Position numbers and translations under genes: made by a program
The notes under the pieces: model-generated
Database searches by the model: none
What the model was told of the DNA's origin: nothing
Seen by the model: the letters and a program-made list of their open reading frames with translations, nothing else
NCBI RefSeq assembly: GCF_023699475.1
Contig: NZ_JALXFV010000008.1
Coordinates: forward strand, 382,475-446,474
Source: Halomarina rubra
GTDB taxonomy: Archaea > Halobacteriota > Halobacteria > Halobacteriales > Haloarculaceae
Length of the DNA: 64,000 nucleotides
Reading direction: 5' to 3'
Shown here: in pieces, positions 27,828 through 40,199 of the stretch
Position numbering within the stretch: the first letter of the stretch is position 1
Layout: every line of letters begins with the position of its first letter

Positions 27828-29729
27828 CTACGCGGACGGGCGAGCGTCCAGGCCCGACAGGACCGTCCCGAGCGAGAACAGTCCGTCGTCGTCGTCGTCG
27901 CTCTCGTTCCCGCTGCTCCCGTCGTCGTCACCGCCCGTCGCGCCGTCGAGCGTGTCGCCGACGCCGTCGGTGACGTTCTCGACCGTCTCACCGGTCTCCT
28001 CGACCGCGCTGGAGGTCTCGGTCGTGGTGGATTCGGTGGAAGTGGATTCGGTCGTCTTCTCCGTCGACGTGGTCTCGGTGGACGTGGTTTCCGTCGTGGT
28101 CTCGGTCGTCGTGGTCTCGGTCGTCCCCGAAGTCGTGCTCTCCGTCGTCGAGTCGTCGGTGCTGAGAAGTCCGCTCGTCGTGTTGTCGACGGCGTCGGTG
28201 GTGTCGTCGACGGCGTCAGTCGTCTCGTCGACCACGTCGCTGGTCGTGTTCGTCACCGCGTCGGTCGTGTCGTCGGTGGTGTTCTCGACGGCGTCGGTGG
28301 TGTCGTCGACCGCGTCGGTGGTGTCGTCGACGGTGTCGCCAGCAGCGGTGTCGTTCGTCGCGTCGTCGAGCGCGCCGGTGACACCGTCGGTCGTGTTGTC
28401 GACCGTATCGGTGGTGTCGTCGACGGTCCCGCTCGTCTCGCCGAGCGTGTCGTCGGTGGTGTTGTCGACGGTGTCGGTGGTGTCGTCGACCGCGTCGGTG
28501 GTGTCGTCGACGGTGTCACCGACGTTGTCGCCCGTCTCGTTCACCAACTCCCGGGTCTCGTTGCCGGCCTCCGTCGGGTCCGAGACGGTGTCGTTCACCG
28601 CGTCGGTGGTGTCGTCGACGGTGTCGCCCACCGTGTCCGTCGTGTCGTTGACGGTGTCACCGACCGTGCCCGTGGTGTCGTCGACCGCGTCACCGGTGGT
28701 GTCCGTGGTGTTCTCGACGGCGTCACCCACGTCGTCGGTGGTGTTCTCGACCCCGTCGCCGACCGTGTCGGTGGTGTCGTTCACCACGTCTCCGACCGGG
28801 CCGGTCGCGTTGTTGTCGACCACGTCCCCGACCTCGTCCGTGGTGTCGTCGACGGTGTCGCCGACCGAATCGGTCGTGTTGTCGACCGTGTCACCGACGG
28901 TGCCGGTGGTGTTGTTGACGGTGTCACCGACCGTCCCCGTAGTGTTGTCGACGACGTCTCCGACCGTCCCCGTGGTGTTGTTGACCGTGTCGCCGACCGT
29001 GCCAGTGGTGTCGTCGACGACGTCGCCCACTGTCCCGGTCGTGTTGTCCACGACGTCCCCGACGGTGTCGGTCGTGTTGTTCACGACGTCACCGACCGGG
29101 TCGGTCACGTTGCCGATGGGACCGCTGTCGTTCGCGCCCGGAATCGGGAGCTGTGGGAGCAGCGTGCGGAGCGTCGACGCGGACACCCACAGACGCATTC
29201 GGTCGGCGTGGGCGCGCTGGAACGCGAGGTCGAGTTTCCCGCCGCGGATGGAGCCGTCGGTGATGTCGACGTCGTCCATCACGAGTTTGAACCCTCGGCG
29301 CTCGTCGACGGGCGACCGGATACAGAGCTTCCCGACGACGATCTTCGAGGCCTCGACCGTGAACGGCCCCTCGTGGCTCTCGGCTTTGGTGTCGGCGGCG
29401 AGCGAGCGGATGTTCAGCCGCGTCGTCTCCTGTCGGTAGGCGTCGATGGCGACGTTCGAGAGCACGAGGTTCGCGGGCAGACAGCCCGCGTCGACCAGCG
29501 ATGCGAGACTCCCGTTCCCCGACTCGCTCGCCGAACCGTTCGTCGAACCGTCGGCCGAGTCGTTCGACGTCCCGTTCTCCTGGAGGAGCAGCGGTGGGCC
29601 GGTGCCCCGTACCGTCTCGTCCTCGGCCACGCCGAGACCGACCGCGGAACTGGCCGGCGCGACGGCCCCCACCAGCAACGAACAGACGAGTCCGACCGCG
29701 AGCATCGTACGGAAGGCGCTGGGGTTCAC
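27828..29729 (-). CDS. secreted protein with 11-residue amphipathic repeats
   Basis: A 633-residue protein from GTG 29729. Residues ~1-29 form a signal peptide. A globular domain (~75-190, two cysteines: AGCLPANLVLSNV and GKLCIRSP) is followed by ~350 residues of near-perfect 11-mers of type GTVGDxVxNTT, then shorter DDTTDAV repeats, a Thr/Glu/Ser-rich stalk and an acidic end. There is no PGF-CTERM or C-terminal span. Dozens of N-x-T sequons make heavy N-glycosylation likely. The V-x3-V stripe every 11 residues resembles 3-11 amphipathic helices of alpha-synuclein, perilipin and LEA proteins, though here it is acidic. The globular part faintly recalls DUF6230-type proteins; the gene for one lies 1.3 kb away. 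Confidence 0.85.
   Translation of the reverse strand: MNPSAFRTMLAVGLVCSLLVGAVAPASSAVGLGVAEDETVRGTGPPLLLQENGTSNDSADGSTNGSASESGNGSLASLVDAGCLPANLVLSNVAIDAYRQETTRLNIRSLAADTKAESHEGPFTVEASKIVVGKLCIRSPVDERRGFKLVMDDVDITDGSIRGGKLDLAFQRAHADRMRLWVSASTLRTLLPQLPIPGANDSGPIGNVTDPVGDVVNNTTDTVGDVVDNTTGTVGDVVDDTTGTVGDTVNNTTGTVGDVVDNTTGTVGDTVNNTTGTVGDTVDNTTDSVGDTVDDTTDEVGDVVDNNATGPVGDVVNDTTDTVGDGVENTTDDVGDAVENTTDTTGDAVDDTTGTVGDTVNDTTDTVGDTVDDTTDAVNDTVSDPTEAGNETRELVNETGDNVGDTVDDTTDAVDDTTDTVDNTTDDTLGETSGTVDDTTDTVDNTTDGVTGALDDATNDTAAGDTVDDTTDAVDDTTDAVENTTDDTTDAVTNTTSDVVDETTDAVDDTTDAVDNTTSGLLSTDDSTTESTTSGTTETTTTETTTETTSTETTSTEKTTESTSTESTTTETSSAVEETGETVENVTDGVGDTLDGATGGDDDGSSGNESDDDDDGLFSLGTVLSGLDARPSA
28165..29110 (-). 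repeat. coding tandem repeat, 33-base period (11 residues)
   Basis: About sixteen consecutive 33-base units (29110 down to ~28590) encode [G/D]-T-V-G-D-[V/T]-V-[D/N]-[N/D]-T-T. From ~28530 to ~28165 the period degenerates to mixed 21- and 33-base units (DDTTDAV). Units differ at wobble positions, so the array is not a recent slippage product. Confidence 0.9.
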
Positions 29730-30568: not shown

Positions 30569-31036
30569 TCAGTCCGTCGTCTCCGCGGCGTCCGTGGACG
30601 AGGACTGCTCGGTGGGTGCGGCCGCCGACTCCTCGCTCGGGTGGACCCACGCGATGCACAGCGCGCCGCCGAGGATGCCGAGCAGCGTCCCGACGACGAA
30701 CCCCCCGAGCGCGCCGAATATCGAGATGATGCTGATGAGCATCCCCGCCGCCCCGAAGAACTCCGCCAGTTCGGGTTTCGCCAGGGCGAACAGCCCACAG
30801 AGCACCACGAACACGGCGAATATGAGCCCGACGAAGGCGAACTCCGTCGGGATGAGCGCGAACTTCATCGCCAGGTCGAGCGGGATGATGCCGATGACCA
30901 GCCCCGAGAGCGTCAGCAACACGCCACCCCAGAACGGGCGGTCGTGTTTCCACGACTGCCAGCGCGACCGGTAGCTCGCCGCCCGCTGGACGGGGCCGGA
31001 CTGCCGGACCGTCGACACGGCGTCTATCGCACTCAT
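30569..31036 (-). CDS. DUF6114-like polytopic membrane protein
   Basis: A 155-residue protein from ATG 31036. After a basic cytoplasmic N-terminus (RSRWQSWKHDRPFWGGVLLTLSG) there are four spans up to residue ~135, then an acidic/Ser-rich tail. The phrase WRxxRPFWGGxLLxLxGxxI is what I associate with DUF6114, which in Streptomyces lies beside DUF6230 genes. It is two bases downstream of the next gene, which looks like DUF6230, so the pairing supports the call. Confidence 0.65.
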   Translation of the reverse strand: MSAIDAVSTVRQSGPVQRAASYRSRWQSWKHDRPFWGGVLLTLSGLVIGIIPLDLAMKFALIPTEFAFVGLIFAVFVVLCGLFALAKPELAEFFGAAGMLISIISIFGALGGFVVGTLLGILGGALCIAWVHPSEESAAAPTEQSSSTDAAETTD

Positions 31037-31038
31037 GG

Positions 31039-31635
31039 TCAGTTGGACGCCGCGCAAGCGGTCTTGGGCGCGGTCGCCGAGTCGTTCGGGTTGAGCGTGG
31101 TCTGGACCTGAGTCCCGGGCAGCGTGATGGAGTTCACGAACTGCGCCTGTGACTTGATGGTCGCGTCCTCGATGGTGACGCCCGGCGCGGACAGCGAGAT
31201 CTGGTCCTGGACGTCGGCCGAGGGCGCGCCGGCCTGGATGGTCTGGCCCTGGTCGAACGTCAGGTCGGCGTTGAGGTACGTCGCCTTCTGTGTCAACCCG
31301 GTGAACTCAGCGGTCTGATCGGACTTGATGGACAACCGCATCGTGTCGCCGTTCGGCATCTCGATGTCCTTGTACAGGTGGAGCCCCGAGATGGTCCCGC
31401 TGTCTATCTGTGCGGTGAACGACGGGTAGGCCGCACACTCGGAGTTGTTCTCGACGCTAGCGTACTGCTGGAACCCCTCCCCTTGCAACTGGTCGAACTC
31501 GACGGTGAACCCCCCGACGCCCGCAGTCGGGACGGCCACTGCGACACCACCCATAACGATGGAAGCGCCGACGCCGAGCAACAGAACGTTCCCGACCACG
31601 AACGCGATGACGAACCGCCGTCTGTTAATTGCCAT
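31039..31635 (-). CDS. DUF6230-like exported/anchored protein
   Basis: A 198-residue protein with one N-terminal span (FVIAFVVGNVLLLGVGASIV, residues ~8-27) serving as signal or anchor, then a beta-rich ectodomain (GGFTVEFDQLQGEGFQQYAS ... LSAPGVTIEDATIKSQAQFV) with cysteines at CAAYPSF and near the C-terminus. The pattern resembles DUF6230 proteins of actinobacteria. Function unknown. It precedes the DUF6114-like gene by two bases, forming a two-gene operon. Confidence 0.65.
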   Translation of the reverse strand: MAINRRRFVIAFVVGNVLLLGVGASIVMGGVAVAVPTAGVGGFTVEFDQLQGEGFQQYASVENNSECAAYPSFTAQIDSGTISGLHLYKDIEMPNGDTMRLSIKSDQTAEFTGLTQKATYLNADLTFDQGQTIQAGAPSADVQDQISLSAPGVTIEDATIKSQAQFVNSITLPGTQVQTTLNPNDSATAPKTACAASN

Positions 31636-32213: not shown

Positions 32214-33206
32214 ATGACGACGTTTCTCGCGGGCGGAACTGGGACGCCCAAACTGCTGGCCGGTGCCGACGCGGTGTTCGCCCCCACCGAGACGACGGTG
32301 GTGGGCAACACGGGCGACGACGTGGAGATAGCGGGCCACCTCGTCAGCCCGGACCTCGACACCCAACTGTTCCTCGACGGCGGCGTCCTCGACCGCGAGA
32401 CGTGGTGGGGCATCGCCGACGACGGGGGGACCACTCACGAGCACCTCCACGACCTCGCCGAGTCGGCCGGTCTCGACACCGAACCACGCTACCTCCCCCC
32501 CGAAGCTCAGACCGCAGGTCGGGACATCGCCCGGTGGCGGCGCTTCTCGGGCGTCGCGGAGTTCATGTACATCGGCGACGCCGACCGCGCGGTCCACCTC
32601 ACCCGTACCGGCCTCGTCGACGAGGGGTACACGCTGACCGAGGCGACCCGCGTGCTCTGTGACGCGTTCGACGTCGAACGCACCCTCCTGCCGATGAGCG
32701 ACGACCCCGTCGCGACGATGATTCACACGCCCGACGGTCCGATGCACTTCCAGGAGTGGTGGGTGGCGCGCGGCGGTGACCCTCGCGTCGAGGACGTGGA
32801 GTTCCGCGGTGCCGAGACGGCGACCGTCACCCCCGCCGTCGCGGACGCGCTCGACGCACCGGTCGTCATCGGCCCCTCCAATCCGGTGACGAGTCTCGGG
32901 CCGATGCTCGCGCTCGACGAGTTCCGCGCGGCGCTCGACTCGACGCCGGTGGTCGCCGTCTCGCCGTTCGTCGGCGACCGGGTGTTCTCCGGGCCGGCCG
33001 CGAAGCTGATGGCCGCGACCGGTCGCGACCCCTCCACGGCGGGCGTCGCCGACACCTACCCCTTCGCCGACGCGTTCGTCCTCGACGACGAGGACCCGAC
33101 AGACCTCGACCGACCCGTGGTCCGTACCGACACGACGCTCGACACCTCGGACGACAGCGAGCGCGTCGCCCGCGCCGTCCGCGCGGCGCTCGACGAGGTG
33201 GCGTGA
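32214..33206 (+). CDS. cofD: 2-phospho-L-lactate transferase (F420 biosynthesis)
   Basis: A 330-residue enzyme joining the lactyl (or enolpyruvyl) phosphate unit to Fo in coenzyme F420 synthesis. The N-terminal [18 protein letters not shown] is the classic CofD start; NTGDD, DLDT, the [11 protein letters not shown] segment and [13 protein letters not shown] are family motifs. It starts at ATG 32214 and overlaps the next gene by four bases. It heads a four-gene overlapping operon. Confidence 0.96.
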
Positions 33207-34009
33207 TGTGCGCCGCGACGACACGTTTCGACCCGTTCGAACCACGCGTCGCGGTCGCGAGCCTCTCGGGAGCGGCCGACGCCGAGTGGGCACGTGCAGC
33301 CAGCGAGTACGCCGGGTGTGCGTTCCTCGGCGGTGTCTCGCTCGACGACGCCACACGGGAGGCGGCCCGAGCGCTCGTCGCCCGCGAGCGCGAGGAGTTC
33401 CTGCCCGACGACCCCGTCGCGTTCGTCGACGCCCAACTCGCGGCGCTGGCTGACGTTCCCGTCCGTCCCGCGATGAACGTCCGCAGTGCGACGCTCGACC
33501 CCGTTCGCGCCGTCGGCGCGGTCTGTGCCGACCACGGCGCGCTCCTCGAACTGAACGCGCACTGCCGACAGGACGAGATGTGCGCGGCCGGCGCGGGCGA
33601 GACGCTCCTGCGCGACGGCGACGGACTGTGCGAGCAAGTCGCCGCAGCCGCGGCGACGGGGGCGACGGTGAGCGTGAAACTACGCGCCGAGATTCCTGGC
33701 GTCGACCTGCCGACGCTCGCGCCCGACCTGGTCGCTGCGGGTGCGGCCGTCCTCCACGTCGACGCGATGGACTCCGAACACGTCGTCGGGGAGGTCGCCG
33801 CCGCGTGCGACGCGTTCGTCGTCGCCAACAACGGCGTCCGTGACCGCGAGACGGTCCGCGAGTACCTCGACTTCGGTGCGGACGCGGTGAGCGTCGGTCG
33901 CCCGAGCGACGACCCGCGTGTGCTGAGGCGAGTCCGCCGCGCGACCGACGAGTGGTTCGCCACGCACGCTCCCGAGACGACCGAGGAGCGACCGACGGGG
34001 GCACGATGA
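33203..34009 (+). CDS. TIM-barrel protein related to tRNA-dihydrouridine synthases (archaeal NifR3-like)
   Basis: A 268-residue FMN-type TIM barrel. Dus-like parts include [20 protein letters not shown] (strand with a Cys and the FMN-site region), [14 protein letters not shown] and [13 protein letters not shown] (phosphate-binding end). It lacks the C-terminal tRNA-binding helical domain of true Dus proteins, so a role on a small molecule is more likely. It corresponds to an archaeal TIM-barrel family I know as MJ0144-like. It overlaps cofD by four bases and the next gene by four (ATGA). Confidence 0.8.
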
Positions 34010-34881
34010 GCGAGGGTACTGGTGACCGCTCGACCGACGACGTGCGTCGGCGTACCCCCGCACGGAACGCCGAACTCGCCCTGCTGCTCGAAGTCGCGGG
34101 CACGCCGAAACCGGGCAACGTCGACCGCCAGCGCGACCACCCCGACCTCCACTTCGACCACTTCCTCGCGGGAGCGGTCGGCGCGGCCCCCGGACTGCGC
34201 GCGGCCGCCGGCGACGGGCCGCTCGGCGAGGCGTTCGAGCGAGCGGTCTGTGGGATGGCCGACCAGCGTGGCGGCAACACGCAGTTCGGGGCGCTGTTGG
34301 CGCTCTGTCCGCTCGTCCGCGCGGCGAGTCGCGACGACTCGACGCACGAGGGCGTCGAGGCCGCCGTCGCGGACACGACGGTCGACGACGCCTGTGCGTT
34401 CTATCGCGCGTTCGACCACGTCGGCGTCGCTGTCGGTGACCCGCCCGAGGAGATGGCCGCCCTCGACGTCCGCCGTGGGAGCGCGGCGGTCCCGGCGGTC
34501 CGCGAGCGTGGACTGACGCTCGCGGAGCTGATGGCGCAGAGTGCGTCCGTCGACGGCATCGCCCGCGAGTGGACCGAGGGGTTCCCGCGGACGTTCGCGA
34601 CGGCCGAGCGTGTCGTCGCCGACGACGGTCCCGTCTCCGAGCGCGGTGCGCGAGCCTTCCTCCACCTGCTCGCCGAGGAGGGTGACACGTTCGTCGCGAA
34701 GACGAGCGGCGAGGCCGCCGCGGAGGAGGCGACCGAGCGCGCGCGGGCGGTGCTCGCCGGCGACGCGGACGCCGAGACGGTCGCCGCGGAGTTCGTCGAG
34801 CGGGGTGTCAACCCCGGGACGACCGCCGACATCGTCGCGGCGGGGCTGTTCGTCGCGCTCGAACGCGGGGTGGTGGTGTGA
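34006..34881 (+). CDS. CitG/MdcB-like triphosphoribosyl-dephospho-CoA synthase family protein
   Basis: A 291-residue all-helical protein. The family signature GTPKPGNVDRQRDHPDLHF (residues ~33-51) and GGNTQFGALLALCPL are present, and the C-terminal NPGTTADIVAAGLFVALE matches CitG. Bacterial CitG makes the citrate-lyase prosthetic-group precursor from ATP and dephospho-CoA; no citrate or malonate lyase genes are near, so the archaeal protein likely acts on another nucleotide-type substrate. Start ATG 34006 is set by the overlap with the previous stop. Confidence 0.88.
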   Translation: MSEGTGDRSTDDVRRRTPARNAELALLLEVAGTPKPGNVDRQRDHPDLHFDHFLAGAVGAAPGLRAAAGDGPLGEAFERAVCGMADQRGGNTQFGALLALCPLVRAASRDDSTHEGVEAAVADTTVDDACAFYRAFDHVGVAVGDPPEEMAALDVRRGSAAVPAVRERGLTLAELMAQSASVDGIAREWTEGFPRTFATAERVVADDGPVSERGARAFLHLLAEEGDTFVAKTSGEAAAEEATERARAVLAGDADAETVAAEFVERGVNPGTTADIVAAGLFVALERGVVV

Positions 34882-35564
34882 CTGGCGAGAGGGAGACTGG
34901 CGACGGGGGAGTCGGAGCGGAACGGACGGGCCACGAGCACGTCGGGCCGCCCGCACCAGCGGGCTGGCCGGTCGGCTGGGAGGGGGCGACCGAGTCCGTC
35001 GTGACGACGCTCGGTCCCAACGACCGGTGGAACGTCGCCGCGCTGGGGCTGTTCGCCCCCGCGGACCCGACGACCGACCCCGGCGACTCCGGCGGCCCCG
35101 ACGCGCGCGTCACCGCCCGAACGTGGGGGCGGACCCGGACGTGGCGGAACTTCCGCGAGCGCGGCGCGGGGTACGTCCAGTTCACCCGCGACCCGGTGGA
35201 CTTCGTCGAGGCGGCGTGTACCGTCCGCGAGGAAGACGAACCGGTCCTGCCGAGCGCCGACGCGTGGGTCCACGTCACCGTCGACGCCGTCGCGGAGGGA
35301 GCGGCGGGCGAGACGGAGTGGGTCGAGTGGGCGCTGTCGCCCGTCGAGGCGAGCGTCGAGCGACGGGTCGTCCCGACGGTCGACCGTGCACACGCTGCGG
35401 TGGTCGAGGCGACCGTGGCGGCCTCGCGACTCGGGGTGCCGGGGTACGAGGACGCGAGGCTCCGCGGGCGAATCGAGGACTGCGAGTCGGTCGTCGACTC
35501 GTGTGGCGGGCCGCGCACCAGAGAAGCGTGGAAGCGGTTCGAGGCGACCCTGGAGGACGCCTGA
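34878..35564 (+). CDS. DUF447 family protein (FMN-binding split-barrel-like)
   Basis: A 228-residue protein from GTG 34878, overlapping the CitG-like stop as GTGA. The core reads ATESVVTTLGPNDRWNVAALGLF, a strand pattern of flavin-reductase-like split barrels, and RTWGRTRTWRNFRERGAGYVQFT; the C-terminal helical part (RLGVPGYEDARLRGRIEDCE) follows. DUF447 proteins occur in methanogens and methylotrophs with C1-carrier genes (from memory), but their reaction is unknown. It is the last gene of the cofD operon. Confidence 0.85.
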   Translation: MTGERETGDGGVGAERTGHEHVGPPAPAGWPVGWEGATESVVTTLGPNDRWNVAALGLFAPADPTTDPGDSGGPDARVTARTWGRTRTWRNFRERGAGYVQFTRDPVDFVEAACTVREEDEPVLPSADAWVHVTVDAVAEGAAGETEWVEWALSPVEASVERRVVPTVDRAHAAVVEATVAASRLGVPGYEDARLRGRIEDCESVVDSCGGPRTREAWKRFEATLEDA

Positions 35565-35584: not shown

Positions 35585-36112
35585 TCAGACCTCCGACTCG
35601 CCCGTGTCGCCGCGGTGGAGTCGCTGGACGCGCCGGTACGACTGGAACTCCCCGCGGTCGTTCAGGTCGATCTCGTAGCGGCCGAGGATGTCCTGGGTGT
35701 CGGGGACGGCCTTGCGCTCGACGACCTCGACGACCGCCAGCCAGCCGTCGTCCTCGCCGTCGTCGTCGCGCTGTCGGCCGACCTCGACGAGCGCGTCGAA
35801 CGGGTGGCCGATGAGTTTGCCGGCGTTCGACCGGACCGTGTCGCGCACTTCGATGAGGCCGACCGTCCCGTCGTCGCTCTGGCTTGCTTCGGACTCGTCG
35901 TCGCCGACGTCTTCGTCGTTCTCGTCGCTCACGTCGTCCTCCGTGGTCGACGATTCGGCGGTCGATTCGTCGTCCGTCGTCGTGTCGGTTGTGTCGTCAT
36001 CGATGGTCGGGTCGTCTTCGTCGTGCTGGTAACAAAAACCATCGTCCTGTGCGGGGCGGGTGCACCGCTCGCCGCCGGCGGTGAGCGCTCGACACTGGTC
36101 GGTGTCGGACAT
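35585..36112 (-). CDS. gvpO: gas vesicle protein GvpO with N-terminal CCCH zinc-like module
   Basis: A 175-residue protein. The C-terminal half is GvpO: DGWLAVVEVVERKAVPDTQDILGRYEIDL closely matches the Halobacterium protein. GvpO is one of the eight proteins required for vesicle formation, thought to act in gvpA expression or assembly. Ahead of it lies CRALTAGGERC...GFCYQH (Cys7, Cys17, Cys27, His30), a small zinc-binding-like motif, and a ~55-residue Asp/Ser/Thr linker; this module is not in the Halobacterium GvpO I know. It follows gvpA by 17 bases. Confidence 0.93.
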   Translation of the reverse strand: MSDTDQCRALTAGGERCTRPAQDDGFCYQHDEDDPTIDDDTTDTTTDDESTAESSTTEDDVSDENDEDVGDDESEASQSDDGTVGLIEVRDTVRSNAGKLIGHPFDALVEVGRQRDDDGEDDGWLAVVEVVERKAVPDTQDILGRYEIDLNDRGEFQSYRRVQRLHRGDTGESEV

Positions 36113-36129
36113 AGCTCACTCGGTGGCGC

Positions 36130-36417
36130 TCAGGACTCCTCGACTTCGATAGCGCGGGGTTCGATGGGGCCCACGCCCGTCTCGAGGTTCTGCATGTCCT
36201 CCAGTTCGCCAGTCTGACTGGCTTGTTCTATCATCGATATCTGTTGGGCGTAGTGGATGAACGTGTCGACGGACGCGACCACGACGCGGGCTTCGACGGT
36301 CAGGATCTCGATACCGACCACCGAGATACGGGCCCAGACGTCGATGACCATACCCTTGTCGAGGATTCGGTCGAGGACCTCCGCGAGACTCGACGCGTTC
36401 GGCGTGTTGGTTGCCAT
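36130..36417 (-). CDS. gvpA: gas vesicle structural protein GvpA
   Basis: The 95-residue shell protein that polymerises into the vesicle wall. The central sequence [20 protein letters not shown] then [18 protein letters not shown] is nearly identical to Halobacterium GvpA. A C-terminal tail of ~20 extra residues ([20 protein letters not shown]) makes it longer than the 76-residue Halobacterium protein. ATG 36417 matches the family start ([15 protein letters not shown]). It is transcribed away from gvpF. Confidence 0.98.
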
Positions 36418-36563
36418 CGGGTACCGACACTCGAAGCGAGGGGTAGACCCTATTGCCTGCACAGGCCGGTCGGCCCCCCGCGGACCGGGACGGGGGACGT
36501 CGACCTTTCGTGTGCAGGCACGGGTTATTGGTAGCGGTCTGGAGAATCCCCGCGCGATAGCGG
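36418..36563. promoter_or_regulatory. divergent gvpA/gvpF promoter region with inverted repeat
   Basis: TGCCTGCACA at 36454-36463 and its exact reverse complement TGTGCAGGCA at 36511-36520 face each other 57 bases centre to centre. Read in each gene's own direction, TGTGCAGGCA sits 36 bases (gvpA) and 43 bases (gvpF) ahead of the ATG, directly before A/T-rich TATA-like sequence (AATAGG; GGGTTATTGG). The arrangement suggests a shared activator or repressor site for both operons. gvpD and gvpE, the known regulators, are not in the window. Confidence 0.65.
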
Positions 36564-37187
36564 ATGAGCGACAACCTTTACGCGTACGGCGTCACGCCCG
36601 ACGACGGGAGCTTGGCGGTCGACGCGACGGGCGTCGACGGCTCCGAGGACGTCTCGACGGTCTCACACGGGCCGCTGGCAGCCGTCGTCTCGCCGGTCGA
36701 CGACATGGACCCCGAGCGGACCGACGAGAACGTCCGGGCGCACGACGACGTCCTCAGAGCGGTGATGGTCGACGCCGAGCGGACCGTCGTCCCGATGCAG
36801 TTCGGGATGGTGTTCAAGGGCAAGCGACCGTTGAAGAACATCCTCCGAACGGGCCGACCGACGTTCTCGCGGTCGTTGAACGACATCGACGGCACCTACG
36901 AGCTCGGCGTCAAACTCGTCGCCGAGGAGGGGGCCACGGTCGACCGCGAGGCGGTCGCCGAACGGGTCGACGAGCGACTCGCGCCGGTGAGCGTCGGTAC
37001 CGTCGAGAACGACCTGTTCTCGGACCGACTCGTCGTGAACAGCTCCTACCTCGTCGAGCGCGACGAACGCGAGGCGTTCGACGAGGCCATCGACGACATC
37101 GACGAGGCGTACGACGCGCTCACGCTCCAGTACACGGGACCGTGGGCACCGTACAACTTCGTCGACGTCGCCATCGAGGCGAAGTGA
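36564..37187 (+). CDS. gvpF: gas vesicle protein GvpF
   Basis: A 207-residue member of the GvpL/GvpF family. [15 protein letters not shown] starts the N-terminal alpha/beta domain, [20 protein letters not shown] is the conserved middle, and [18 protein letters not shown] is the C-terminal signature. GvpF binds GvpA monomers and is thought to help seed or chaperone assembly. It is the first gene of the rightward operon; gvpG follows after one base. Confidence 0.97.
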
Positions 37188-37188
37188 G

Positions 37189-37443
37189 ATGACGTTCGTC
37201 GTCGACGACCTGCTCGTCCGGCCGTTCCTCGGACTGCTCAACGTCATCCACTCGATGGCTATCGAGGGCATGTACGACACCGACGCGCTCCGGGACGAAC
37301 TGAAGGAGAACCGTCTGCTGTTCGAACTCGGGGAGCTGACCGAGACGGAGTACGAGGAGCGTCGCGCCGACATCGAGAACCGCCTGGAGGTGGCCGAACA
37401 GGCACGCGAACAGTTGAGCGGCCGCATCGAGGTGCGACAGTGA
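37189..37443 (+). CDS. gvpG: gas vesicle protein GvpG
   Basis: An 84-residue, mostly helical, charged protein. FLGLLNVIHSMAIEGMYD (residues ~14-31) and the C-terminal ELTETEYEERRADIENRLE are GvpG family hallmarks. It is one of the eight required vesicle genes and an assembly accessory. Its GTGA end overlaps the start of the next gene. Confidence 0.95.
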   Translation: MTFVVDDLLVRPFLGLLNVIHSMAIEGMYDTDALRDELKENRLLFELGELTETEYEERRADIENRLEVAEQAREQLSGRIEVRQ

Positions 37444-38291
37444 GTCCCGACGACGAGGCCGGCGGCACGAACGGCGAGTCTTCGAGCGAGGAGACCGAGA
37501 CGACCCTCGCCGAGCGCGCCCGTCAGGACCTGGTCGACATCGTCACGTCGCTGGCGACCGGCGCGACCGGGGACGCCCTCGACGCGCTCGAGGACCTCGA
37601 GAGCGTCGCGACGGAGGCCGGCGAGCTGGCGGGGACCGTCGACGCGGACCGACTCCCCGACGCCGTCGACCTGAGCGAACTGCCCGAGGCCATCGACGTC
37701 GACGCCCTCGCCGGTGCCATCGTCTCCGGCGAAGCGGGCGACGCCGTCGACACGACGAAACTGCTCGACGTGCTCGAACTCGGTGACCTGTTCGACGCCG
37801 TCGACGTCCGGGAGTTCTGGCGCAACGCCAACGAGTTGGAGGCGGCCATCGAGGAGGCGCTCGGGGAGGAGGCGCTCGCGGAGTGGAAGTCGTACGTCGG
37901 CGAGTCGGTCGACGACGCGGGCGGCGACGACGCGGGCGTCGAGTGGTCGAGTCTCGCGGACGCCGCCGACTCCGAGGCGTTCCAGACGGCCATCCAGTCC
38001 CAGCTACGCGACGCCGTCGACGAGTTCCGCGAGGGCGTCCTCGACGCTCGGAGACAGCTAATCGAACGTCGCGCGGAACTCGCCGAGAAGACCGAGGGCG
38101 TCGGCCAGCCCGACTCTCGGAACCCGTCGGCGTTCTCGACGATGGCCGCCGCGCGGGCGGACATCGGCAACGCCGGGAAGTTCTCGACCGTCCCGACCGA
38201 GACGCGCTACTCGACGGCACCGAACCGCGAGCGCATCTACGGCGACCGGTTCGAGGACCCCACGGAGGACACGGAGGACAACAATGACTGA
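37440..38291 (+). CDS. unrecognised gas-vesicle-cluster protein in the gvpH/gvpI position
   Basis: A 283-residue acidic soluble protein from GTG 37440. It is unlike Halobacterium GvpH (Hsp20-like) or GvpI (basic). Residues ~25-130 contain imperfect repeats around LPDAVDLSELPEAIDVDALA and LLDVLELGDLFDAVDVREFW, with regularly spaced Leu/Val and Asp-Val pairs. Residues ~190-225 are a charged helix (AVDEFREGVLDARRQLIERR), and the C-terminus is Ser/Thr/Arg-rich (RADIGNAGKFSTVP ... ERIYGDRFED). It overlaps gvpG by four bases and gvpJ by eight, so it is translated with the vesicle genes. It may be an interaction or stability factor; no function assigned. Confidence 0.85.
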   Translation: MSPDDEAGGTNGESSSEETETTLAERARQDLVDIVTSLATGATGDALDALEDLESVATEAGELAGTVDADRLPDAVDLSELPEAIDVDALAGAIVSGEAGDAVDTTKLLDVLELGDLFDAVDVREFWRNANELEAAIEEALGEEALAEWKSYVGESVDDAGGDDAGVEWSSLADAADSEAFQTAIQSQLRDAVDEFREGVLDARRQLIERRAELAEKTEGVGQPDSRNPSAFSTMAAARADIGNAGKFSTVPTETRYSTAPNRERIYGDRFEDPTEDTEDNND

Positions 38292-38784
38292 CCGAACCCA
38301 ACCGGACCGCGAGAGCCGCAAGCGACGCACGCCAGGACCGACCCGCGAGGGCGACAGCCTCGCGGACGTCGTGGAGCTCCTGCTCGACAAAGGAATCGTC
38401 ATCAACGCCGACATCGCGGTCTCGGTCGGCGAGACCGAACTGCTCGGCGTCCACATCCGGGCCGCCATCGCCTCGTTCGAGACGGCCGCGAAGTACGGCC
38501 TGCAGTTCCCCGACGGCACCGACGCGAAACGCGTCCAGGAGGCCGCCGGCGTCGACCCACTGGAGGAAGGCGACGAGGCCGACGACGGGGCCCCCATCTC
38601 GGTCCGCAGTCCGAGTCGCGGCGGCGTGGGCGAACGACCGGCCGACGACGAGGACGACTCGGTGGCCGAGGCGGTCGAGGACGCCGTCGAGAACGTCGCC
38701 GAGGCCACGACGGGCGAGGGAGACGACGGCGGGAGCGGCGACGCCGCAGACGACGCGGCCGAGGACACGGAGGGCGAGGAGTGA
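38284..38784 (+). CDS. gvpJ: gas vesicle protein GvpJ
   Basis: A 166-residue GvpA-like minor protein. The GvpA-related core is [20 protein letters not shown] then [20 protein letters not shown] (residues ~25-65). An N-terminal basic extension and a long acidic Ala/Glu/Asp tail (from ~residue 95) are extra; Halobacterium GvpJ is shorter. Thought to be a minor shell or cap component. It overlaps its neighbours by eight and four bases. Confidence 0.95.
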
Positions 38785-39068
38785 CGCAGATCGACATCGA
38801 CGGGGAGGCGGCCGGTGACGGGCTCGTCGCGCTCGTCGTCACGGTGGTCGAACTGGTCGTCGAGGCGCTCGAACGCGAGGCCATCCGCCGGATGGAGTCT
38901 GGGTCGCTCACCGACGCCGAGATCGAACGCGTCGGCCAGCAACTCGCGTCGCTGGAGGACGAACTGGAGCGGATGAAGGAGGTCCACGGAATCGAAGGAC
39001 CGGTCGACGAACTCCGCGGTGACCTCGACGGACTGGTCCGCGACGCGATGATGCAGGTGGAGCTATGA
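38781..39068 (+). CDS. gvpK: gas vesicle protein GvpK
   Basis: A 95-residue protein from GTG 38781. [20 protein letters not shown] followed by [24 protein letters not shown] is the GvpK family pattern. Required accessory protein, thought to act in assembly of the vesicle. Overlaps gvpJ and gvpL by four bases each. Confidence 0.95.
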
Positions 39069-39967
39069 CCGACTCGACGGCCGATGCCACCGAGGACGCA
39101 CCCGGCGACGCGACCGACGGTGCGGATACCGAAACGACCGACGACGCGAGCGGGAGCGACACCGCCCGCTACGTCTACTGTGCCGTCGCGCTCGACGACG
39201 ACTCGGACCGGACGCCCGACGTCACGGGTGTCGAGGACGAACCCGTGCGACTGGTCACAAGTGACGGGTCGCAGGCCGGTCGCGGCGTCGGCCTGCTCGT
39301 CCACGACTGCGACGGACTGTACGACTCGAACGACCCGACCGAGGTGCAGGGCTGGCTCCTGTCACACCAGGCCGTCGTCGACGCCGCCACCGAGCGATTC
39401 GGGACGCCCGTCCCGTTCCGGTTCGACACCATCGTCCAGGGTGACGACGACACCGTCCGGACGTGGTTGGCCGACCAGCACGACGGACTCAGGGCCGTCC
39501 TGGAGGAGTTCGCGGGTCGGTCGGAGTACCGTATCGAGGTGCTCGTCGACGAGGAGACGCTGGACGCGGGGCTCGCCGACACCGACCCACGCCTCCAGGA
39601 ACTCGCCGACCAGCGCGACGATTCCAGCGAGGGGACGGCGTTCCTCGTCGACAAGCAGTACGACCAGCGCCTGAAGGAACTACGCCACCAGCGTCGGGCC
39701 GAGCGCACCGAGACACTCGTGTCGGACGTGTCCGCCCACGCCGACGACGTCCAGACGCTCGACGACCCGACGACGACGCTCGGGGACACTCCCGACCGGG
39801 AGGGGACCGTCCAGGCCCGGTTGACGATGCTCGCCGACGACGACGCCGTCGAGGCGGTCGGGGCGCTCCTCGACGAGGTGGCCGCCGAGGAGGGCGTCTC
39901 GGTGCGGTTCACCGGGCCGTGGCCGCCGTACTCCTTCGTCCCAGAGGTCGACGATGGAGCCGCGTAG
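39065..39967 (+). CDS. gvpL: gas vesicle protein GvpL
   Basis: A 300-residue GvpL/GvpF-family protein. After a ~32-residue acidic/Ala/Thr leader, [12 protein letters not shown] begins the domain; [20 protein letters not shown] is the conserved middle and [16 protein letters not shown] the C-terminal signature. In Halobacterium GvpL is reported as a hub that binds most accessory Gvp proteins. It overlaps gvpK by four bases and gvpM by fourteen. Confidence 0.97.
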
Positions 39968-40199
39968 GGACGGCGACGCCATCGTCGACCTGCTCGACGT
40001 CATCCTGCGCGACGGCGTCATCCTGCAGGCGGACGTCATCATCAGCGTCGCGGAGGTCCCGCTCGTCGGACTCCAGTTGCGGGCCGCGCTCGCGGGGATG
40101 GACACGATGACGCGCTACGGACTGCTCACCGACTGGGACGAGGAGACCCGGACGCGGGCGGTGGCGGACGAGGACGCGCCACCGACGCGCATCGAGTAG
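39954..40199 (+). CDS. gvpM: gas vesicle protein GvpM
   Basis: An 81-residue GvpA-like minor protein. The core AIVDLLDVILRDGVILQADV then IISVAEVPLVGLQLRAALAG is clear; the tail is short and charged. It aggregates with GvpA-like proteins and is part of the minimal set. It is the last gene of the rightward gvp operon. Confidence 0.95.
   Translation: MEPRRDGDAIVDLLDVILRDGVILQADVIISVAEVPLVGLQLRAALAGMDTMTRYGLLTDWDEETRTRAVADEDAPPTRIE

Follow-up and report, generated by a model that had tools for sequence, protein, structure and literature searches.

Two joined gene units in the cofD operon of Halomarina rubra and a possible methanopterin-type carrier for methionine synthesis in haloarchaea

Four overlapping genes, headed by the coenzyme F420 gene cofD, lie at positions 32214-35564 of a 64,000-nucleotide stretch of the Halomarina rubra genome (contig NZ_JALXFV010000008.1), the whole of which is called the window here. 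Open reading frame (ORF) and profile searches confirmed the coordinates and gene families given for the locus in an initial annotation, which had also placed a four-base overlap at every junction. The genes are listed below (FMN, flavin mononucleotide; H4MPT, tetrahydromethanopterin).

32214-33206, + strand: cofD, 2-phospho-L-lactate transferase of coenzyme F420 synthesis (TIGR01819 369.6 bits, cut-off 257.45)
33203-34009, + strand: Dus-like FMN TIM barrel, MJ0144/nifR3-related (TIGR00736 111.7 bits, below the cut-off of 218.7)
34006-34881, + strand: CitG-family protein of the archaeal/H4MPT type with the motif PKPGNxDR (PF01874 229.6 bits)
34878-35564, + strand: DUF447 flavoprotein (PF04289, DUF447_N, 76.2 bits and PF20766, DUF447_C, 47.6 bits)

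The operon is two units joined, one of cofD and the TIM-barrel gene and the other of CitG and DUF447, which track a third gene outside the window, mptG; CitG, DUF447 and MptG are referred to below as the module. The three junctions are in-frame 4-bp overlaps with the sequences GTGA, ATGA and GTGA. The TIM-barrel ORF, ending at 34009, may start at GTG 33203 or at ATG 33206, and with the latter start its overlap with cofD would be 1 bp. Among 80 named haloarchaeal loci, gathered by scanning genome contigs with CofD, the order cofD-TIM barrel-CitG-DUF447 is intact in 71, cofD being the front gene of the haloarchaeal operon, and the 4-bp overlap is retained at 46/76, 59/70 and 57/71 of the first, second and third junctions, respectively. 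Such conservation of both order and overlap shows that the arrangement is not due to chance. In four Halorientalis loci (L112, L119, L156 and L168) the CitG and DUF447 matches are separated by a gap of about 430-480 bases as opposed to the 4-bp overlap found elsewhere. The three genes behind cofD had been labelled orphans, which is incorrect, as TIM barrel-CitG-DUF447 is an old order common to Halobacteriota. DUF447 is present in 186 of 197 genomes of this phylum, CitG is located directly upstream of it in almost all of the 30 best Halobacteriota loci, and the TIM-barrel gene often precedes CitG.

The division into two units is evident from the pattern of gene loss. CitG was found in 144 of 155 Halobacteriales genomes and MptG, the ribofuranosylaminobenzene 5′-phosphate (RFAP) synthase family TIGR00144, in 147, of which 142 score above the curated cut-off of 113.5; the homolog in H. 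rubra itself (G000:C15:159004-159948) scores 158 bits. When only the 129 Halobacteriales genomes that are at least 90% complete are considered, CitG is absent from three and MptG from four, and all three CitG-less genomes are among those lacking MptG (Fisher p = 1.1e-5, uncorrected for kinship; two of the three, G008 and G060, belong to the same genus, so the losses count as two independent events). These three genomes, the third of which is Halobacterium salinarum (G119), also lack DUF447, but retain Mch and cofD with the TIM-barrel gene adjoining, and cofD was kept in 30/30 complete haloarchaeal genomes tested, module-less ones included. Wherever DUF447 is lost in complete or named genomes, CitG and MptG are gone as well (5/5, H. 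salinarum among them). In three species of Halobellus the locus holds cofD-TIM barrel only, and whole-genome searches, set as a test after the idea had been formed, found neither CitG, DUF447 nor MptG in Halobellus rufus and H. rarus. In H. clavatus the same type of search showed that CitG is gone and that DUF447 directly adjoins MptG. The Halobellus results thus add a loss lineage and indicate that DUF447 and MptG form a tight pair to which CitG is more loosely attached. Of the four families in the operon, CitG and DUF447 vary jointly with MptG, whereas cofD and the TIM barrel are kept independently of them. Among the control genomes, DUF447, CitG and MptG are all present in Sulfolobus acidocaldarius, Methanocaldococcus jannaschii, Methanosarcina acetivorans and Haloferax volcanii, and the sole match to any of the three in the others was CitG in Escherichia coli. 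Three genomes of the same phylum (G056, G121 and G164) have DUF447 together with a weak RFAP synthase family match (54-76 bits); here MptG may be replaced or strongly diverged.

The TIM-barrel protein of 267 residues scores 20.8 bits on Pfam Dus against a gathering threshold of 20.4 and contains a conserved Dus-like Cys motif, and its predicted structure (predicted local distance difference test, pLDDT, 89.0) has E. coli DusC as best solved match. The C-terminal methanogenesis marker 9 domain TIGR03277, present in the two non-haloarchaeal methanogen-type homologs checked, is absent from it. Membership of the TIM barrel in the module was considered and rejected: the gene is kept without the module in G008, G060 and G119 and was not found in G018, G201 and G202, which keep CitG. 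A separate role is therefore most likely, one candidate being RNA dihydrouridine synthesis. In one metagenome-assembled genome (QH_10_67_13, L127:5987-6622) the TIM-barrel gene is without the Cys-motif segment, which is either a true deletion or an assembly fault.

A pathway for the module is suggested by lineages in which its genes have other neighbours. In genome G293, MetE2-MetE1 is divergent from Mer-CitG-DUF447-MptG, and this cluster occurs twice, one copy showing 4-bp overlaps along the whole operon. The two clusters (L032 and L033) are diverged complete copies, both located away from cofD. The order Mer-DUF447-MptG is found in H. clavatus and in a divergent family (G203 and G213), with Mer immediately upstream and overlapping DUF447 by 4 bp; these Mer proteins score 397-435 bits on NF002619 (cut-off 276) and do not reach 348.7, the cut-off of the stricter model TIGR03555. 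MptG is directly followed by both halves of the split MetE in G203, and in G018 Mer is located about 2.2 kb from MptG. No pathway clue was obtained from the mptG neighbours in most haloarchaea, which are transcription factor S, a KaiC-like ATPase and dihydroxy-acid dehydratase. Published papers assign methionine synthesis in nearly all haloarchaea to split MetE. The neighbours of the module in these lineages are thus two enzymes, Mer, which uses F420H2 to reduce a methylene carrier, and MetE, which transfers the methyl group to homocysteine. The F420 dependence of Mer would also explain the place of the module in the cofD operon of most haloarchaea. A tblastn search of 1,685,946 of the 2,085,946 bases of the module-less G060 (81%, all but 1,600,001-2,000,000) found cofD and the TIM barrel, and within these bases Mer, MetE1, MetE2, MptG, CitG and DUF447 were not found. 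H. salinarum, also without the module, is unable to make methionine (PMC5241448). A link of split MetE to MptG, DUF447 or CitG was not found in the literature searched.

Of the module proteins, the CitG protein scores 30.6, 43.0 and 41.6 bits on the equivalog models TIGR03125, TIGR03132 and NF002315, for which the cut-offs are 272-282, and the classical CitG/MdcB role was rejected at these scores. Its PKPGNxDR motif is almost invariant and is common to the methanogen homologs. ATP is the donor of the triphosphoribosyl unit that CitG transfers, and the alpha geometry of this transfer matches the alpha-ribosyl phosphate of methanopterin. The protein is a candidate (tri)phosphoribosyl transferase for the carrier. 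For DUF447 the predicted structure (pLDDT 87.7) best matches the FMN-bound structures 2IML, 2NR4 and 2PTF, followed by flavin reductases, and the window protein itself presumably binds FMN. H4MPT synthesis needs reduction of the ribosyl ring to deoxyribitol, a step to which no enzyme is known to be assigned, and the natural guess is that DUF447, as a candidate FMN-dependent reductase, takes the product of MptG as its substrate. Nothing relevant was found in literature naming DUF447.

Taken together, F420 synthesis, represented by cofD, would be coupled in this operon to some of the steps that make a methanopterin-type carrier. In the proposed pathway MptG, encoded elsewhere in the genome, would condense phosphoribosyl pyrophosphate (PRPP) with p-aminobenzoate or 4-hydroxybenzoate, CO2 being lost. 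DUF447 as an FMN split barrel would act on the ribosyl ring of the product, by reduction or ring opening, and CitG would use ATP to attach an alpha-linked (tri)phosphoribosyl group, which the carrier of CitG-less lineages would be without. Reduction by the F420-dependent Mer would then turn the methylene carrier into its methyl form, from which split MetE (MetE1/MetE2) would transfer the methyl group to homocysteine, giving methionine. What is observed directly is how the operon is built, to which families its proteins belong, that the genes are lost together and that they cluster with Mer and MetE; each single reaction and the chemical identity of the carrier are inferred. The best explanation, with a probability of roughly 0.6, is that the product of the module is a methanopterin-type carrier serving F420-dependent Mer and the split methionine synthase. 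A functional tie of the module to the methyl branch of methionine synthesis is likely, and a distinct methanopterin-type carrier is put forward tentatively, at slightly less than even odds, the value for the best explanation lying between these two. Equally tentative is the idea that haloarchaea hold two pterin one-carbon (C1) carriers. One would be folate, serving purines, thymidylate and serine, and the other a methanopterin-like carrier made by MptG, DUF447 and usually CitG, with a shortened form where CitG is lacking, for methionine synthesis by Mer/MetE.

Several observations weigh against a methanopterin-type carrier. The haloarchaeal MptG reaches 182.9 bits on the RFAP synthase equivalog NF040726, below the cut-off of 328, and carries Asn and Tyr in the positions of D19 and D28. 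Yet a bacterial MptG, from an H4MPT island, does no better (176.7 bits) and also deviates in the D19/D28 loop, and the haloarchaeal protein still has the PRPP loop HVGLGSGTQ and an equivalent of R26. The haloarchaeal proteins form one clade, which groups with the bacterial island enzymes in a quick tree whose branches are long. In the Methanothermobacter enzyme a D19N mutant is partly active and p-aminobenzoate binding is governed by R26 (PMC6787355). Divergent MptG copies were also seen in two drafts of family f12 (L076 and L078, from G098 and G180), in neither of which DUF447 was found; that of G098 shows the haloarchaeal Asn/Tyr motif. Haloarchaeal C1 chemistry has moreover been annotated as folate-based with Mer acting on folate, and HVO_2628, the MptG of Haloferax volcanii, was considered probably not to catalyse the RFAP synthase reaction (PMC8305020). 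The dihydropteroate-synthase-like protein of the H4MPT type, TIGR00284, gives only 18-26 bits in haloarchaea versus 289-364 in methanogens and relatives. With this protein missing, a complete H4MPT pathway was not found in haloarchaea, where no search was made for MptN and methanofuran genes, and the pterin-joining step, being without a dedicated enzyme, would fall to the folate enzyme or to some other one. The module is also not always whole: some genomes with DUF447 and MptG have no CitG, as in the draft genomes examined of the divergent families f37 and f31, and four drafts (G253, 94% complete, and G285, G303 and G198, 72-86%) have CitG and DUF447 with MptG not found. Mch stays in module-less genomes and is therefore independent of the proposed carrier. 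H. salinarum lacks several further amino-acid pathways, so its case is weak when taken alone and loss of the module there could be general gene decay; the whole-genome survey of Mer and MetE covered G060 only.

Gene decay of this kind, in which streamlined or auxotrophic lineages drop unrelated genes and the operon is a housekeeping neighbourhood serving no common pathway, would agree with the amino-acid pathways missing in H. salinarum and with the small size (2.1-2.4 Mb) of the complete module-less genomes G008, G060 and G119. It is made improbable by Halobellus rufus and H. rarus, which dropped the same three genes from genomes of 3.7-3.9 Mb, and by the clustering with Mer and MetE in several lineages. 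The alternative with most in its favour, although still unlikely, is that the module makes or modifies a folate derivative for the methyl branch, so that a single, altered carrier takes the place of two. With TIGR00284 absent, no pterin-joining enzyme is visible apart from the folate dihydropteroate synthase; published assignments are on the side of folate (PMC8305020), and either carrier would be compatible with the clustering with Mer and MetE. MptG-family chemistry, however, swaps the carboxylate of p-aminobenzoate for ribose and cannot yield a glutamylated folate, and these genes are used for H4MPT in bacteria and, to judge from their context, in methanogens as well.

The initial annotation had proposed that the genes build or modify a cofactor related either to F420 or to C1 carriers. 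The C1-carrier part is upheld, since CitG and DUF447 are associated with Mer, MptG and methionine synthase, and a bacterial H4MPT island contains the two of them; the F420 part is not. Action of CitG and DUF447 with CofD on F420 or a precursor would suit the position of cofD as first gene, the four-gene order in 71 of the 80 named loci and the occurrence of cofD-DUF447 without CitG in some f31 genomes. Yet cofD is present in all 30 complete genomes, including those without CitG, DUF447 and MptG, and DUF447 sits with Mer and MptG in G293, H. clavatus, G203 and G213, while the link to F420 is accounted for by the F420-dependent Mer. Modification of F420 by the module was hence rejected, cofD persisting where the module is lost, and a joint action on F420 is very improbable. 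Still less credible is the reading that the CitG protein makes triphosphoribosyl-dephospho-CoA as prosthetic group for citrate lyase or malonate decarboxylase. PF01874 membership and the so annotated solved relative 3h9p would speak for it. It is opposed by the scores of at most 43 bits on the MdcB/CitG equivalogs, by a nearly invariant motif common to methanogens, and by neighbours that are Mer, DUF447 and MptG and not lyase or decarboxylase genes, no genome search having been made for the acyl-carrier partners.

In the prevailing view haloarchaea swapped methanopterin for folate, and their remaining methanopterin-type genes are misannotations or retargeted enzymes. If the module does build a carrier for methionine synthesis, this swap was only partial, the methyl donor of the archaeal split methionine synthase becomes identifiable, and coenzyme F420 gains a clear haloarchaeal role. 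DUF447 and the archaeal CitG type would likewise gain a testable place in a pathway common to methanogens and methylotrophs. Haloferax volcanii is well suited to genetics and has CitG, DUF447, MptG, cofD (HVO_2479) and mer (HVO_1937), with H. salinarum serving as a natural null.

Elsewhere in the window, gas vesicle genes start directly past the operon (35588 to 40199), with a GvpO carrying an N-terminal DUF5763 on the − strand followed by gvp-like ORFs. Upstream on the − strand are adjoining DUF6230 and DUF6114 genes (30569-31635) and a gene for a secreted-looking protein of 633 residues consisting mostly of DTVDDTTD/NTTG-type repeats (27828-29729).

The closest known systems are those of H4MPT biosynthesis in methanogens and methylotrophic bacteria, in which the same three families occur as MptG, Orf7-type CitG and Orf19-type DUF447, with the order CitG-DUF447 in methanogens. 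In line with the initial annotation, which had CitG-like and DUF447 families accompanying methanofuran and H4MPT genes, both are found with MptG in a bacterial H4MPT/methylofuran island on a Phyllobacterium zundukense plasmid. In this island CitG adjoins a MyfB-type RimK and mch, and DUF447 adjoins a TIGR00284-type DUF6513 protein, a flavoprotein, MfnE and MfnB. Published clusters read mch-orf5-orf7 and orf19-orf20-afpA-orf21-orf22 (PMC3615186), and matching the P. zundukense order to them suggests that CitG is Orf7 and DUF447 is Orf19. In Methylorubrum extorquens all genes of the corresponding cluster were reported essential on methanol (PMC8141765). The CitG/MdcB triphosphoribosyl-dephospho-CoA synthases have the PF01874 fold family in common with the window protein, which differs in falling far below all of their equivalog cut-offs and in its partners. 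The structures 2IML, 2NR4 and 2PTF have the Pfam family and fold of the window DUF447 and all three contain FMN, their entries being titled as hypothetical, uncharacterised or FMN-bound proteins. The passages on the split MetE of archaea in PMC7857596 name no carrier-making genes for haloarchaea; in G293 and G203, MetE1 and MetE2 adjoin each other and the module. Compared with the H4MPT systems, the haloarchaeal MptG is in a separate clade with Asn at D19, and the haloarchaeal module sits with Mer and split MetE and not with genes of methanogenesis or formaldehyde oxidation.

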